DNA from: an uncultured Ruminiclostridium sp.
GTDB lineage: Bacteria > Bacillota > Clostridia > Oscillospirales > Ruminococcaceae
NCBI GenBank assembly: GCA_947629925.1
Contig: CANRFO010000007.1
Location: forward strand, 1 to 64,000
Length of the DNA: 64,000 bases
Direction: 5' to 3'
This document shows positions 11,769-54,652 of this stretch, piece after piece (within the stretch, counting starts at the first letter, position 1; the number at the start of each line of letters is the position of its first letter). Made by a program: the position numbers and the translations under genes. Under the pieces are notes generated by a model. It was not told the DNA's origin. It was given only the letters and a program-made list of their open reading frames with translations, and searched no databases.

Positions 11769-11812
11769 TGACATAAGCAGCCTGACTATTAGGCATTCCC
11801 GCATAAAATATC

Positions 11813-11842
11813 AAAAGCAGGCGAAGAACCGCCTGCTTTTTG
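11813..11842. terminator. terminator shared by GH5 and the GNAT cassette
   Basis: Arms AAAAGCAGGCG and CGCCTGCTTTT around a short A-rich loop, with T or A runs outside both arms. It can serve GH5 on the + strand and GNAT on the minus strand. A near copy is at 32312-32341. Confidence 0.75.
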
Positions 11843-11890
11843 CGTATAGAAGTGCATATATTGAAATTTATCTTACAGATAAATCAGAGT

Positions 11891-12310
11891 TTAACCCTCA
11901 AATGCGAACAAATTTCCCAGCGGAATCGTAAAGCCTAATGACTGATACATTTTAATATCACAATCCGCACATCCAACTGTGAGAGAAGCTACACCGCTTT
12001 CTCGGTATGCGAATCTGACTAACTGCCTTGCAATTCCCCTGTGCCGATATTCCGGAACAATGTAGAAATCTTCAAGCACGCCTCCCGTTTGGTAGTTAAA
12101 TGTGGAATAGGTTGGTGTGATGGAGCAGCACGCAACCGGTCTACCCTCATCCATACACCCGTAAAAGATGATTTTCCCCTTTTTTATAGCCTCAGAGAGG
12201 CTGTCAAAGTTCTCATCCGTAGGCGCTTCTTCTCCAATTTCCTGTTTGTAACCGAGGTGAAGCACTTTTAGTCCGTCCATATTTCCATTCGTGATACAAA
12301 TATATTCCAT
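11891..12310 (-). CDS. GNAT family N-acetyltransferase
   Basis: A 139-residue acetyl-CoA-dependent acetyltransferase. Residues 75-110 hold the core motif: LEDFYIVPEYRHRGIARQLVRFA, where RHRGIA is the Q/RxxGxG/A acetyl-CoA loop, followed by LTVGCADCDIKMYQSLGF, the usual motif B with YxxxGF. The N-terminus is less conserved, so the substrate is unknown. The start follows GGGGGAG. It is the cargo of cassette-like element A, which suggests acquisition separate from its neighbours. Confidence 0.85.
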   Translation of the reverse strand: MEYICITNGNMDGLKVLHLGYKQEIGEEAPTDENFDSLSEAIKKGKIIFYGCMDEGRPVACCSITPTYSTFNYQTGGVLEDFYIVPEYRHRGIARQLVRFAYRESGVASLTVGCADCDIKMYQSLGFTIPLGNLFAFEG

Positions 12311-12394
12311 TTGTTCTCCCCCTTTTCAAATCCCGATTTATCACATTCCTGTCATATCGGTAATCGGTAAGCCCTTTTTGTCAGGCTGTTTTTA

Positions 12395-13509: not shown

Positions 13510-13860
13510 GGGACCGTAAAGGTTTCGACGGGGGCTGTGAACCTTGCCAAGCATGCAGAGTTCTCCTAAACTCTTTAATAATGGGTAAATTAAAATTAAA
13601 CGCAGATTACACATCTGAACCCGTAGCTGCCTAATTGCAGCTGCCGTCCTGCCGAAGAGTACTGCGGCTTCGGTTCGGGCGTCATTCAGCAGTGAACGTC
13701 CTCGGCGATAGCCTTGTAACCGTTGATGTACCAAAGGGCTGCCAACTCGCTGTCCCGTCTGTCGGAAAGCGATGAGGGAGATTTTAAAGGCTGACTAAGC
13801 ATGTAGAAAAGTGAGCGGATCGGCTTTCGGACGCGAGTTCGATTCTCGCCGGTTCCACCA
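13510..13860 (+). ncRNA. ssrA: transfer-messenger RNA (tmRNA)
   Basis: One-piece tmRNA of about 351 bases that rescues stalled ribosomes with SmpB. The 5' end GGGACCGTAAAGGTTTCGAC is the family hallmark; its first seven bases pair with CGGTTCC near the 3' end, which carries the encoded CCA. The T-arm GAGTTCGATTCTC is clear. The tag frame starts at GGT 13584-13586 and ends at TAA 13632-13634, giving GKLKLNADYTSEPVAA. This starts like the Bacillus tag (GK) but ends in VAA, not the common LAA. Pseudoknot-forming segments occupy 13640-13800. Confidence 0.95.
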
Positions 13861-14119
13861 GCCGCTGAGCGGCTTCAATGCGCTCCCAATCCACGGGAGC
13901 GTATTTTTACATTTACCGCCCAAAAAACTTTTTGGCAGCGAAACGAAGCGGCTGAGCGGCTTCAATGCGCTCCCAATCCACGGGAGCGTATTTTACATTT
14001 ACCACCCAAAAAACTTTTTGGCAGCGAAACGAAGCGGCTGAGCGGCTTCAATGCGCTCCCACCCCACGGGAGCGCATTTTATATTTACCACCCAAAAACT
14101 TTTTGGCAGCGAAACGCAG
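13861..14119 (+). repeat. three tandem 86-87 base units of terminator-like hairpins
   Basis: Units start at 13861, 13948 and 14034 and are about 95 percent alike. Each holds three hairpins in order: a GC palindrome (GCCGC-TGA-GCGGC type), GCGCTCCC with GGGAGCGT followed by a T-rich run, and CCAAAAA with TTTTTGG. A partial fourth GC palindrome follows at about 14118. The first unit abuts the CCA end of tmRNA, so its middle hairpin is the natural ssrA terminator. No open reading frame is credible here; reading frames through the repeats are by-products of the repetition. It fills the gap to the phosphoesterase gene. Confidence 0.9.
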
Positions 14120-14152
14120 CCGCATGAGCCGCCTACTCACAAAGGATAAAAC

Positions 14153-15079: not shown

Positions 15080-16576
15080 TTATCTGTGCGCTTCCTTTGA
15101 AGCCATAATGCTCTCCAGCATTTCGGGGAAAAGGAACTTATAACTCATGCGGTTGTAGAAAGCCCCCTGAATGTCCCAGATAACAGGGCATACTCCCGCG
15201 TTGTACATTTCCTCCGTGACCGTTTCCATAAAGTTTACTATCTGTTCTTCGGTCTTGTTTTTCTGCGCGACACCGTATTCGCCGACGATAACGGGGATAC
15301 CCTTATCCACAAAGGTCTCTTTCAGCATATTCATGTATTTTTGCAGTTCCTTTATGTCTTTTTCGTTGCCCCAGGTGCTTTTTGCCTTGCCCCAGCTCGC
15401 GTCCTCCTCAAGTATGCAGAAAGTGGAAGGCGTGTAGTAATGTACCGACACTGCGCAGCGTCCCGCAGGGTCGTTCGGCATTTTGAACATCTCATCGCAG
15501 GTAAGGTCTATGTCCGTGTTGTATCCTGCTATGAGCAGATGGCGTTTTGCGTTGTTGCCGCCTGAATTTCTCACTGTGTCAACAAACCTCTGATTTATCT
15601 CATAAAGCAGCTCGTAAGAATCGGCTTTTCCGTTTGTATTTCCGCTGTACCTGTTCCACATGCTGTCCCAGCCGCCCTCTTCGTTGAGGGATTCAAACAT
15701 CAGCTTGTCGCCGTAATCTTTGAAGGCTTCCGATATCTGCTCCCATATGCGCGTGTATTTTTTCATGCACTCCTCAGTATCGGTAGGAAAATTTGAAAAC
15801 CAGCCGTTATCCCAGTGTATGTTCACGATAGCGTACATACCGCTGTCCAGCGTCCAGTCCACTATCTCCTTTACTCTTGCTGTGTATTCTTCGTTTATGG
15901 TATAGTTTTCGCCCATCATATTTGACCACGCCACAGGTATCCTCAGAACTCCGAACCCGCAGTCTGCGTACCCCTGAATGACCTTTTCGGTGATAACGGG
16001 ACTGCCCCACGCGGTCTCATAGCCTCTCACGCCGCCTGACGGGCTTATCCAGTTCCCGCAGGATTCCATCGTGTTGCCGAGATTTATCCCCTGCCCCATA
16101 TCGTGTACTATTTCCATGGTGGTCATATCCCGTATTTCTTTTACGCCGTCTGATTTATTATGCGTTACCGAAGGAGCGGCAGGCTCCTTTTCGGTTGCGG
16201 AAGTCTGCTTTTCTGTAGCAATGGTCTGTTTTTCCGTAGCAGTAGTCTGCTTTTCGGTGGCGGCAGTCTCTTTTTCAGTGGCAGTGGTCTGCTTTTCGGC
16301 AGCTGTCGTCTGCTCTTTTGTTTCTTCGGGCTTTTCTTCGGAAGCCGTGCTTTCCTTGGCGGAGGTCTCCTCTTCGGAAACGGTGGTCTGCTCATTTACC
16401 GTCGTTGTTTCATTTTCGCTTGCTGTTGTTATTGCGTCATCGGAAACAGTCTGCTCCTGCGAGATGTCCGAGCTTTCGGGAACGTTTTGGCTGTCTGTGC
16501 TGTTGCAGCCGCAAATCAGGATGGAAACGCTGAGAAACAGCGTCGTTAAAATACTTATAAGTCTTGTCTTTTTCAT
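15080..16576 (-). CDS. GH5 family glycosidase lipoprotein with a repetitive Thr/Glu linker
   Basis: A 498-residue surface enzyme. Signal peptide and lipobox end at about Cys24 (LICGC). Residues about 35-135 form a Thr/Glu/Ser/Lys-rich linker with about seven TEKQTTA-like heptads. The GH5 domain follows: GINLGNTMESCGNW, LRIPVAWSNMM, NIHWDNGW, FESLNEEGG with the acid/base Glu, VHYYTPSTF and VIVGEYGVA with the nucleophile. The start at 16576 follows AAAGGTGAT; an in-frame ATG 39 bases upstream overlaps the end of the preceding gene. It is the last gene of a three-gene operon. Endoglucanase, lichenase or mannanase activity is possible. Confidence 0.9.
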   Translation of the reverse strand: MKKTRLISILTTLFLSVSILICGCNSTDSQNVPESSDISQEQTVSDDAITTASENETTTVNEQTTVSEEETSAKESTASEEKPEETKEQTTAAEKQTTATEKETAATEKQTTATEKQTIATEKQTSATEKEPAAPSVTHNKSDGVKEIRDMTTMEIVHDMGQGINLGNTMESCGNWISPSGGVRGYETAWGSPVITEKVIQGYADCGFGVLRIPVAWSNMMGENYTINEEYTARVKEIVDWTLDSGMYAIVNIHWDNGWFSNFPTDTEECMKKYTRIWEQISEAFKDYGDKLMFESLNEEGGWDSMWNRYSGNTNGKADSYELLYEINQRFVDTVRNSGGNNAKRHLLIAGYNTDIDLTCDEMFKMPNDPAGRCAVSVHYYTPSTFCILEEDASWGKAKSTWGNEKDIKELQKYMNMLKETFVDKGIPVIVGEYGVAQKNKTEEQIVNFMETVTEEMYNAGVCPVIWDIQGAFYNRMSYKFLFPEMLESIMASKEAHR

Positions 16577-32254: not shown

Positions 32255-32311
32255 ACTGAGCTTCATTAAAATAAAAGCAGACGCAATTTAGTCAGTCCCG
32301 CATAAAACGGC

Positions 32312-32341
32312 AAAAGCAGACGTAAAAACGTCTGCTTTTTT
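32312..32341. terminator. terminator in element B
   Basis: Arms AAAAGCAGACG and CGTCTGCTTTT around TAAAAA, then TTG. Like the copy at 11813, it can end transcription from both sides (HlyD-like on + and MmcQ/YjbR on -). Confidence 0.75.
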
Positions 32342-32405
32342 GTGTATGTATAGAAGTGCGCATATTAAATTCATCTTACAGATAAATCAGAATTTGTTCT
32401 TACAT

Positions 32406-33065
32406 TCACTTTGTCAGCAAATAGCTTTCATCAACCCTGCGGCATATTTCATACGTCGAAACTGTTCCGTCCAAAATGATCGTGTACCAATGTTTCTTAT
32501 TCATGTGCCAACCGGGGTAAAATTGAGCGTTATCAATGAGACCCTCCATTTCTTCCGGCGCAGTGCGCAGGTCGATAATTTCCACAATTTCATCAGACGG
32601 GATGCCGAGTTTGCGGCGGGAAACAGACAGCAACGCGCCGTACCATTTTTCATTGTCCTTCCGACGCCAGACAGCATTATCGGGGAATTTATCCCAAAGA
32701 TATTCAAGCTCATCACCGTATTTTTCACGGACATAGGCAATGAGTGCAACGGACTGCTCCGCCTTGAAGACTGCCGTTTCATAACAGCGATCGGCGATAT
32801 CCTGCAAGATGTTTGTTACAGCCGTTCTGACCTCGCCGACAAATGTACCAACTGTGTCTGTTTTGTAAAGAACATACTCCTCTCCTGTGGCAATTTCCGT
32901 CAGTTTCGTATCTGGCACAGAATTCTTACCGATGGTGATTTCCAAGTGGAATTCGCCATTTAACATATCCGTGTCGTATTTGCGATGGTTTCGGATTTTC
33001 CGAAAGCCATAGGCATCTAGCTTTTCAAGAACAGCCTTTTTTCGCAGAAAAATATCTTCGAACAT
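32406..33065 (-). CDS. MmcQ/YjbR family protein
   Basis: A 219-residue protein. The C-terminal 120 residues match the MmcQ/YjbR fold: FPDNAVWRRKDNEKWYGALL, VEIIDLRTAPEEMEGLIDN, FYPGWHMNKKHWYTIILDG and ESYLLTK. The N-terminal 90 residues are an added domain seen in longer members of this family. The CyaY-like fold is often called DNA-binding, but the role is unknown. The start follows GGAGATGA. It is the cargo of cassette-like element B, and its codon choice is plainer than its neighbours, which suggests transfer. Confidence 0.8.
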   Translation of the reverse strand: MFEDIFLRKKAVLEKLDAYGFRKIRNHRKYDTDMLNGEFHLEITIGKNSVPDTKLTEIATGEEYVLYKTDTVGTFVGEVRTAVTNILQDIADRCYETAVFKAEQSVALIAYVREKYGDELEYLWDKFPDNAVWRRKDNEKWYGALLSVSRRKLGIPSDEIVEIIDLRTAPEEMEGLIDNAQFYPGWHMNKKHWYTIILDGTVSTYEICRRVDESYLLTK

Positions 33066-33183
33066 TGTATTTTCATCTCCGTAAATCCCGATTTATCACA
33101 ACGCTGTCATATCGGCAAGTTTTCTCACTGTGTCTGCTTTTATTATGTAAGGATCACTTCAAAACACGTTTTCTTCCGCCGCT

Positions 33184-50086: not shown

Positions 50087-50794
50087 GTGAAAATATTCTG
50101 CGTATGGGAGCACAACGGCGGCGACAGTCTTTTATTTGCAGATACCTGTGTCGGAGCTTTTACACGAGGTGCCTCCAAGAATTCGGTTCTTGAGAAAATG
50201 CCAACTGAAATAAGGTCTTATATCAGCTGGAAAGGCGGTTTGATGCCCGATGCTTTTGAATGCGAAATCATTCAGGAAAAGCAATCTGATCTGACTGTTT
50301 CCGATGCCGATTCTGATGTCATATTTGATTCGGAAAGGAAAGGACTAAGCCTGGCCGAATATGTGGAATTGAAAGCGCTCACCCTAAAATCAGCGCAGGA
50401 TTTTTTGGCACTGTATCAAGCCATTCCCGATAAAAGTAAAAGCTGCCTGCCAAGCCGAAAAACTTTTTACGGGCAGGTTCCGCGGACAGCACAGGAAATG
50501 TATGAGCACACAAAAAACGTCAACCAGTATTATTTTGGAGAAATTGACGTTCCTGCGGACAATGAAGGTACGATTCTGGAATGCAGAGAGCGTGGATTTG
50601 CGGCTCTTGAAAACCGGGCGGATTTTTTGAAACGTGCAGTCTGCCTTGGCAGCTATAACGAAGAATGGTCGTTGCGAAAGGTACTTAGACGTTTTGTCTG
50701 GCATGACAGGATCCATGCAAAGGCTATGTACCGAATGGCTGTAAAGACTTTTGGCGACAAATCTGTGCCAAACGTGTTTCGGTTTATTATATAA
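50087..50794 (+). CDS. DinB-superfamily-like hypothetical protein
   Basis: A 235-residue protein of uncertain function. The N-terminal 70 residues are unfamiliar. The rest resembles DinB-like four-helix proteins: RTAQEMYEHTKNVNQYYFGEI is the usual helix 1 pattern, and EEWSLRKVLRRFVWHDRIHAKAMYRMA carries the paired His of the metal site near the C-terminus. DinB-like proteins include bacillithiol transferases and many unknowns. Start is GTG at 50087 after AAGGAGGG. It sits between convergent tuf and ACT genes, and its 3' flank shares GCGCACTTCTATAC with elements A and B. Confidence 0.6.
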   Translation: MKIFCVWEHNGGDSLLFADTCVGAFTRGASKNSVLEKMPTEIRSYISWKGGLMPDAFECEIIQEKQSDLTVSDADSDVIFDSERKGLSLAEYVELKALTLKSAQDFLALYQAIPDKSKSCLPSRKTFYGQVPRTAQEMYEHTKNVNQYYFGEIDVPADNEGTILECRERGFAALENRADFLKRAVCLGSYNEEWSLRKVLRRFVWHDRIHAKAMYRMAVKTFGDKSVPNVFRFII

Positions 50795-50858
50795 TTATGT
50801 TCATGAGTTAAAAGTATAGCTTCAAATTCCCATTTATCAAGCCGCCGCAAACCCATTG

Positions 50859-50921
50859 GCGCACTTCTATACATAAAGACCGTTGACACACCGATTTTCC
50901 GATACGTCAACGGTCTTTTAT
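50859..50921 (+). other. cassette-type 3' motif and terminator (third copy, element C)
   Basis: GCGCACTTCTATAC (50859-50872) is the reverse complement of the motif in element B (32348-32361) and nearly that of element A. It is followed by a 13-bp hairpin AAAGACCGTTGAC / GTCAACGGTCTTT (50875-50918) with T-run, in the same relative place as the terminators of A and B. Possible outer inverted repeats are GTTGAATGGACGGTTAGCC (near 50039) and GGTAACACCATTCAAC (near 50934). The leader block of A and B is not clearly present, so this copy is weaker. Confidence 0.4.
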
Positions 50922-50956
50922 TCGTTATTATTGGTAACACCATTCAACGCCATTTT

Positions 50957-54438: not shown

Positions 54439-54473
54439 AAAGAATATCGCAGCCGCATAAAAATGCGTTACGC

Positions 54474-54646
54474 CGCCGATAGCTCTCCACCGCTTTTACG
54501 ATGACAGTCGCAGCCCTGTTCGGAACTGCGCCCGAAAGCCGTCTGTCTGCAAACGGACTTCCTCGGCGGTATCTGCCTTTCGCCGCCGCAACACACAGAC
54601 ATGTTACCGCAGGGGTTACTTATCAGCACCGCGCCTCTATCTCACT
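54474..54646 (-). promoter_or_regulatory. lysine riboswitch (L-box)
   Basis: Read on the minus strand, the aptamer shows the family blocks in order: GTGAGATAGAGGCGCGG at the 5' side, GATAAGTAA, GGCAGATACCGCCGAGGAAGT, GACTGTCATCG and GGTGGAGAGCTATC closing the P1 stem with GATAG. These match the lysine riboswitch core (AGAGG, AGUA, GCCGA, CUGUCA, GGAGAGCUAUC). It lies between a strong promoter and a terminator ahead of asd-dapA-dapB-ACT. High lysine should stop transcription. Confidence 0.93.
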
Positions 54647-54652
54647 TTTCCA

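Follow-up and report, generated by a model that had tools for sequence, protein, structure and literature searches.

A dispersed family of single-gene cassettes, probably mobile, seated in the loops of intrinsic terminators in Clostridia

Element B and other features of the window

The window (the whole stretch of 64,000 nt that was analysed) carries a reverse-strand gene for a YjbR-domain protein between two outer 15-nt repeats, a unit referred to here as element B. Its features were located by direct reading, with Pfam and with two covariance models, R1 for the conserved 5' block and R2 for the conserved 3' block:

32270-32284 (+): left repeat AATAAAAGCAGACGC, read directly; it lies outside element B
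33130-33144 (+): right repeat GTGTCTGCTTTTATT, an inverse match to AATAAAAGCAGACGC at 14 of 15 positions
about 32288-33126 (-): element B proper, in the terminator loop; the ends are those of fading conservation across copies (about +-4 nt)
33081-33119 (-): conserved 5' block CTTGCCGATATGAC...GATAAATCGGGATTT; R1, E 5.8e-20, B being in the build set of the model
32406-33065 (-): cargo gene for a 219-aa YjbR-domain (MmcQ/YjbR-like) protein; PF04237, E 1e-15
32282-32387 (-): conserved 3' block with core CACTTCTATAC and its own terminator; R2, E 2.4e-20, B being one of the sequences used to build R2 and the match extending a few bases into the host arm
32312-32339 (-): own bidirectional terminator hairpin AAAAGCAGACG...CGTCTGCTTTT, within the 3' block
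32381-32395 (+): inner inverted repeat GATAAATCAGAATTT, adjoining the cargo; weak R1 match on the opposite strand, E 0.0067
33083-33097 (+): its partner AAATCCCGATTTATC, read directly; direct-repeat comparison

An earlier note on this DNA had described the two repeats with their 14/15 inverse match, an internal terminator hairpin, an MmcQ/YjbR gene, and a second unit (element A) with the same parts in the same order and spacing around an unrelated gene. Direct reading bore out the repeats and the hairpin, Pfam agreed on the identity of the gene, and the direct-repeat families D5, D6 and D14 placed the parts of A and B in the same order and spacing; the cargo proteins (a GNAT acetyltransferase in A, YjbR in B) are unrelated by Pfam. 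On the cargo strand both elements read CTTGCCGATATGAC..GATAAATCGGGATTT, gene, ATTTATCTGTAAGATGAATTTAATATGCGCACTTCTATAC, hairpin AAAAGCAGACG/CGTCTGCTTTT and TTTTATGCGGGACTGCCTAA, with the gene lying between the inner inverted repeats GATAAATCGGGATTT / AAATTCTGATTTATC. The putative cassette ends, which would face each other at a possible circle joint, are ...CTGCCTAA / AAAGGGGCTTGCC.... With up to 1 mismatch allowed, the motif AAAAGCAGAC was counted 25 times in the window, where 6.15 matches were expected; 0 of 100 shuffles gave so many. Five of the 25 matches belong to a coding 21-nt repeat near 16.2 kb, which is present in six copies (16187-16314).

The features of element A are:

11778-11786 (+): left host terminator arm CAGCCTGAC; duplex -28.4, best of 27
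11783-11884 (-): 3' block; R2, E 5.8e-22
11891-12310 (-): cargo gene for a GNAT acetyltransferase (139 aa); PF13508, E 2e-11
12326-12364 (-): 5' block; R1, E 5.6e-20
12380-12388 (+): right host terminator arm GTCAGGCTG, from the arm-pairing test

In the congeneric genome G005 the element A site has no clean empty counterpart, as tsaD there precedes a different terminator and a different neighbour. A possible third cassette of the window, copy E, would be a decayed one, to judge from a single conserved part:

50832-50948 (+): 3' block only; R2 with an E of only 0.04, CACTTCTATAC exact

This block follows a 235-aa ORF (50087-50794, +), to which Pfam assigned no family, and has a different terminator (AAAGACCGTTGAC/GTCAACGGTCTTT). 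Elsewhere in the window, the tmRNA gene (13510-13860) is directly followed by three tandem copies of an 86-nt unit (13860-14129), each containing a terminator-like hairpin, and a lysine riboswitch (Rfam RF00168) was found at 54472-54647.

Outer repeats and the host terminator

The 14/15 repeats had been taken for the ends of the element. Comparison with the congener identifies them as the two arms of a bidirectional intrinsic terminator of the host, which are site-specific and present there without the element. At the B site of G005 (L025) the sequence AATAAAAGCAGACGTAACATTACGTCTGCTTTTTGTTTATT makes up one intact bidirectional terminator with no cassette, and the neighbouring NaPi-type protein is 98% identical to that beside B in the genome that carries it (G000). 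Empty sites were found for three copies (B, copy C and G000:C18). The copy C site holds an intact terminator in G005 and is filled in G061 (L020), where both arms are kept; in G000 one arm has been lost. The site of G000:C18 is empty in both G061 and G005, each with a flank 98% identical. No target-site duplication longer than about 4 nt was seen in the three filled/empty comparisons, which do not place the insertion to the exact base. At the site of L153 the terminator is intact in G005, the site is occupied and the left arm lost in G000, and G061 has a decayed 3' block (L212, G061:C21). The site of L166, checked for an empty counterpart, was not clean.

When copies are compared, conservation sets in about 11 nt ahead of CCGAT on the 5' side (31 copies) and fades about 13 nt beyond TTTTAT on the 3' side (38 copies). 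Beyond the conserved part there is a poorly conserved arm stretch and then A-rich sequence on the left and T-rich sequence on the right, the pattern of a split terminator. When the flanks were paired in 27 of the 52 loci (some of which are one site in two species), arms had a mean duplex energy of -18.0 with their own partners versus -13.6 when mismatched (0/20,000 permutations); the 25 loci that were dropped comprise 24 without a 5' block within 2 kb upstream and one without the TTTTAT anchor. The left flank of B pairs better with its own right arm (duplex -24.9) than with any of the 26 other right flanks. The true partner ranked first in 5/27 loci and first or second in 11/27, and in 13 of the 27 at least 10 other right flanks paired better, which suggests that many sites are eroded or are not terminators.

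Terminal inverted repeats common to the copies, as would be expected of MITEs, were not found, as the arms differ from site to site and conservation fades before the arms are reached. A caution for annotation follows: apparent 'terminal inverted repeats' on either side of a gene can be a single split host terminator.

Distribution, cargo and orientation of the family

Element B is one copy of a dispersed family whose members consist of a 5' block, usually one gene, and a 3' block with its own terminator. In 10 genomes R1 gave 42 matches and R2 gave 68 (E up to 0.01), of which the weaker R2 ones, at E above about 1e-5, grade into ordinary terminators; G000, which is 99.75% complete, has six R1 and 12 R2 matches. 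An exact pattern scan of the genome contigs returned 16 loci. Twelve of these, all with 29-base spacing, are in eight Clostridia bins whose isolate names start with 'Lapin', and which, going by that name (French for rabbit), would come from rabbit. A 3' block lies behind eight of the twelve (L012, L013, L014, L016, L017, L018, L020 and L022); L009, L019 and L021 reach the contig end, and L008 had none behind it. The remaining four loci, spaced 27 or 30, belong to other phyla; their flanks are unlike, and they were put down to chance.

At the level of the order, 8/394 genomes from four genera and three families matched R2 at E up to 1e-7, a list in which G029 and G286 share coordinates and scores with G061 and G062 and 366 unmatched genomes are not itemised. 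Among the same-genus genomes listed, two match R2 and 11 do not under strict filters. An early pattern search of 60 genomes with a fixed 4-nt gap found matches in the genome of B only; the fixed gap missed the 5-nt form, and G029 (= G061) scored 0, so this negative means little. The comparisons were made mostly on assembled MAGs, with one genome per species. The profile scan of the ends with a listing of cargo that the earlier note had proposed yielded conserved blocks that recur with varied cargo in a group of Clostridia. Its refuting alternative, that the repeats belong to common terminators with no link to cargo, survives in its first half: the repeats are terminator arms, but their link to the presence or absence of cargo holds.

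In an alignment of 49 matches that had been fitted to the structure, covariation of the 3' hairpin exceeded that of shuffles on three of five measures, with 19 two-sided cells vs 6.4 in shuffles (0/500), and was within the shuffles on the remaining two (26/500 and 132/500). For the hairpin of the 5' block no convincing covariation was found. An identity as a known Rfam RNA was disfavoured, the matches to such RNAs all lying below the gathering score. Neither B nor the GNAT cassette had a match in plasmid and phage collections, and a scan of IMG/VR with the 5' pattern gave 0 matches; the one IMG/VR match to the 3' pattern lay in a coding frame of a phage-like contig from which the other parts were absent, and was set aside as chance.

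Several copies depart from the usual layout. L139:1467-1602 (about 136 bp) is cargo-less and MITE-like, its 5' block being joined straight to a 3' block, and L126, L133 and L129 have the same acetyltransferase cargo and a 3' block, without a 5' block. Copy D (L003:1501-2700, G000:C8) contains S51-peptidase-like cargo with an early stop, then a ribbon-helix-helix gene; its 3' end has CACTTCTATAC and a different hairpin, and an adjoining ORF at the contig end looks acetyltransferase-like. From this arrangement, copy D is perhaps a small array. Between copy C and the host gene that follows lies a short ORF (L007:2940-3120), a putative GrpB-like fragment and perhaps the remnant of another cassette.

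The cargo scan with Pfam covered 38 proteins, of which 29 were assigned to a family and 9 were not:

Transferases and kinases: GNAT acetyltransferases (several unrelated), nucleotidyltransferase, APH-like kinase, methyltransferase
Peptidase and lactamase folds: CAAX protease-like, beta-lactamase fold, metallo-beta-lactamase fold, peptidase S51, S66C
DNA-binding types: HTH, ribbon-helix-helix
Others: YjbR, HAD, NUDIX, TfoX_N, flavin reductase, polyketide cyclase-like, HIT, glyoxalase

The D-Ala-D-Ala ligase gene of L132 is probably a host gene and not cargo. Among the 49 ORFs listed, which include copies of one cargo, 16 have their stop codon 5-7 nt upstream of the 3'-block model start and four have it 10 nt upstream, and in nine it falls at one fixed stop inside the block.

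Different cargo at one site was observed twice, so that one gene per site with exchangeable content, as in integrons, is found here as well. The B site contains YjbR in G000 and a GNAT acetyltransferase in G061 (L012) and is empty in G005; a second site is occupied in G061 by L156, with a beta-lactamase fold, and in G005 by L102, with a nucleotidyltransferase. At the second site both genomes have the same 3'-block variant, kept by the site despite the change of cargo, whereas the 3' block of L012 resembles that of the same cargo elsewhere and its 5' side resembles that of B. The 3' block thus stayed with the site in one case yet seems to have gone with the cargo in the other, two patterns that point to different moving units.

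Copy C, at another site, carries a nucleotidyltransferase with 95.1% identity to the one in L102. Core genes compared between the two species are about as close (94.4-94.9%), so the pair alone is no sign of recent transfer. The GNAT cargo recurs at different sites, in G061, G000, G005, G063, G064 and G079, with a DNA identity of 86-99%. Between G061 and G079, a genome of another family, the identity is 97.2%, and the G079 cassette sits between host arms (AAAAAAGCAGGCCC / GGGCCTGCTTTTTT) quite unlike those of G061. Among G000, G005 and G061 the GNAT cargo is 98.3-98.8% identical vs 94.4-95.7% for the NaPi gene. At the SDR locus it is present in G000 and G005 and absent from G061, which has a weak 3'-block match there (E 2e-4).

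In 27 two-ended copies, called with a simple open-frame rule and counted as copies, not sites, the upstream gene is on the strand of the cargo in 15, on the opposite strand in three and undecided in nine. The downstream neighbour is oriented convergently in 17 copies, shares the strand in five and is undecided in five. This pattern is consistent with terminators as the sites of insertion, most of them bidirectional and flanked by convergent genes. The agreement of cargo and upstream strand in 15 of the 18 decided copies points to expression by read-through: judged by position and orientation, the cargo would be promoterless and transcribed from the upstream gene. By splitting the terminator of that gene the cassette would let transcription continue into the cargo, and its own terminator would then stop transcription for both neighbours. 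With a split terminator and read-through, a cassette should need no promoter.

Possible means of movement

Element B is probably a copy of a mobile single-gene cassette family seated in the loops of host intrinsic terminators, a reading whose support is entirely comparative, no movement having been observed. Comparison shows that the cassette splits an existing host terminator into two arms. Under the mechanism proposed, an enzyme acting in trans may recognise the hairpin, as extruded DNA or as a single strand, as its target, and the same enzyme may recognise the structured 3' block as the cassette end. Homologous recombination in the conserved blocks may help in the exchange of cargo at an occupied site. 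That the family represents a distinct gene-capture system of Clostridia, in which single genes are taken up between a 5' block and a 3' block with a terminator, and an undescribed hairpin-recognising enzyme inserts them into terminator loops in trans, is put forward tentatively, as a possibility somewhat short of even odds. The earlier note had suggested looking for a recombinase gene with matching ends; none was found by the searches made (IntI-type, Y1 and the Pfam scan of cargo), and the 29 proteins with a Pfam family among the 38 scanned include no transposase, recombinase or reverse transcriptase. It had also likened element B to a MITE-like or integron-like cassette, and of this the constant ends around unrelated genes and the integron-like behaviour stand, whereas the 14/15 repeats as terminal inverted repeats do not. 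MITEs are likewise short, dispersed and non-autonomous, and the cargo-less L139 recalls them; the cassettes differ in that they themselves lack terminal inverted repeats, those seen around them being arms of the host terminator.

Unlikely, yet the best placed of the alternatives, is that these are ordinary genes with similar terminators, swapped at shared sites by homologous recombination with no dedicated transposition. One site kept its 3'-block variant and another its 5' side through a swap of cargo, several loci have a 3' block without a 5' block, and the tail of R2 matches merges with plain terminators, all of which would suit such swapping. Recombination leaves unexplained, however, the conserved 5' and 3' blocks at unrelated loci in the loops of different terminators, and the 97% identical cassette between other arms in another family; nor is this a genus-wide type of terminator, with R2 matches in the 8/394 genomes of the order mentioned above (E 1e-7). 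The minimal mobile elements of Neisseria, which occur in naturally transformable bacteria, similarly have alternative genes at a single site flanked by conserved neighbours, but here constant blocks recur at unrelated sites and in other families.

An enzyme with a preference for palindromes, acting in trans and either of the IS110/IS1111 (bridge-RNA) or of the IS3 type, is an improbable mover: TG...CA ends, an IS3 feature, were not seen, and no transposase family was among the 29 of 38 scanned proteins with a Pfam match. For such an enzyme speaks the insertion of IS1397, ISKpn1 and IS621 into REP palindromes, and targeting of REP is reported for five IS families, both according to PMC1525189. 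Insertion into a palindrome is the trait shared with these elements; they carry their own transposase and target REP, whereas no transposase was recognised here and the targets are varied intrinsic terminators.

Quite improbable is an origin as non-autonomous IS200/IS605 relatives that a Y1 transposase moves in trans as single-stranded DNA. A hairpin near the 3' end and a putative one near the 5' end, the absence of terminal inverted repeats and of a clear target duplication, and a hairpin target, which would suit a single-strand enzyme, agree with it. Against it, Y1_Tnp (PF01797) is absent from G000 (with its 12 3'-block matches) and from G005, on which ground a resident transposase was disfavoured as the mover; the domain occurs in 5/13 carriers and in 3/8 genomes without R2 matches, and the 5' hairpin is without convincing covariation support.

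True integron cassettes, including CALINs, whose IntI integrase is encoded in the genome but not nearby, are the closest in behaviour, and yet the identification of the 3' block as an attC site moved by an IntI-type tyrosine recombinase is disfavoured as highly improbable. The likeness consists of single exchangeable genes, each with a 3' palindromic (hairpin) site and a stop codon near it, typical accessory cargo (acetyltransferase, nucleotidyltransferase, NUDIX), expression from outside, which is inferred for the present cassettes, and what may be a small array in L003. In addition, 21/21 genomes gave matches to tyrosine recombinases that fall short of the IntI cut-off. TIGR02249, however, exceeded its 265-bit cut-off in 0/21 genomes, 13 of them carriers, with a best score of 87.8 bits, in a test that 0/14 control genomes passed and that thus has no positive control. 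The consensus of the attC R''/R' boxes is RYYYAAC / GTTRRRY, and the pair RYYYAAC...GTTRRRY was found in 0/49 3' blocks (with 30-nt flanks, boxes 30-150 nt apart, one strand). The copies moreover occupy different terminators with no common platform and possess an extra 5' block. Their 3' hairpin is a T-tailed terminator, whereas attC sites reportedly do not count among T-rich terminators (PMC8876359). A tyrosine recombinase-like gene of G064 is followed by a weak 3'-block match (L236, E 0.005) and was set aside: the match barely differs from an ordinary terminator, and the gene is presumably an Xer-type host gene.

Least credible of all are products of group IIC introns. These do insert at intrinsic terminators and attC sites (PMC4424553), but after the terminator stem-loop and not in the loop (PMC4424553 and PMC7923331), and they are ribozymes with a reverse transcriptase. 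Rfam, applied to the window and to L012, L017 and L022, gave no group II intron RNA at gathering score.

A literature search of titles and abstract openings, with subscription journals mostly outside its scope, returned no description of such cassettes, and their novelty is provisional. Integrons, which went unrecognised here, are the best-known setting for exchangeable single-gene cassettes, and the family of element B is a concrete target for finding the recombinase. If the tentative reading of a gene-capture system is true, each insertion would turn a terminator into an expression site and supply a replacement terminator, and any terminator would be a possible attachment site, in the manner of an integron without a platform. 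A cassette family that docks at intrinsic terminators would explain how accessory genes (acetyltransferases, nucleotidyltransferases, NUDIX, HAD, CAAX protease-like and beta-lactamase-fold proteins) pass among these Clostridia, where they may be expressed at once without a promoter.
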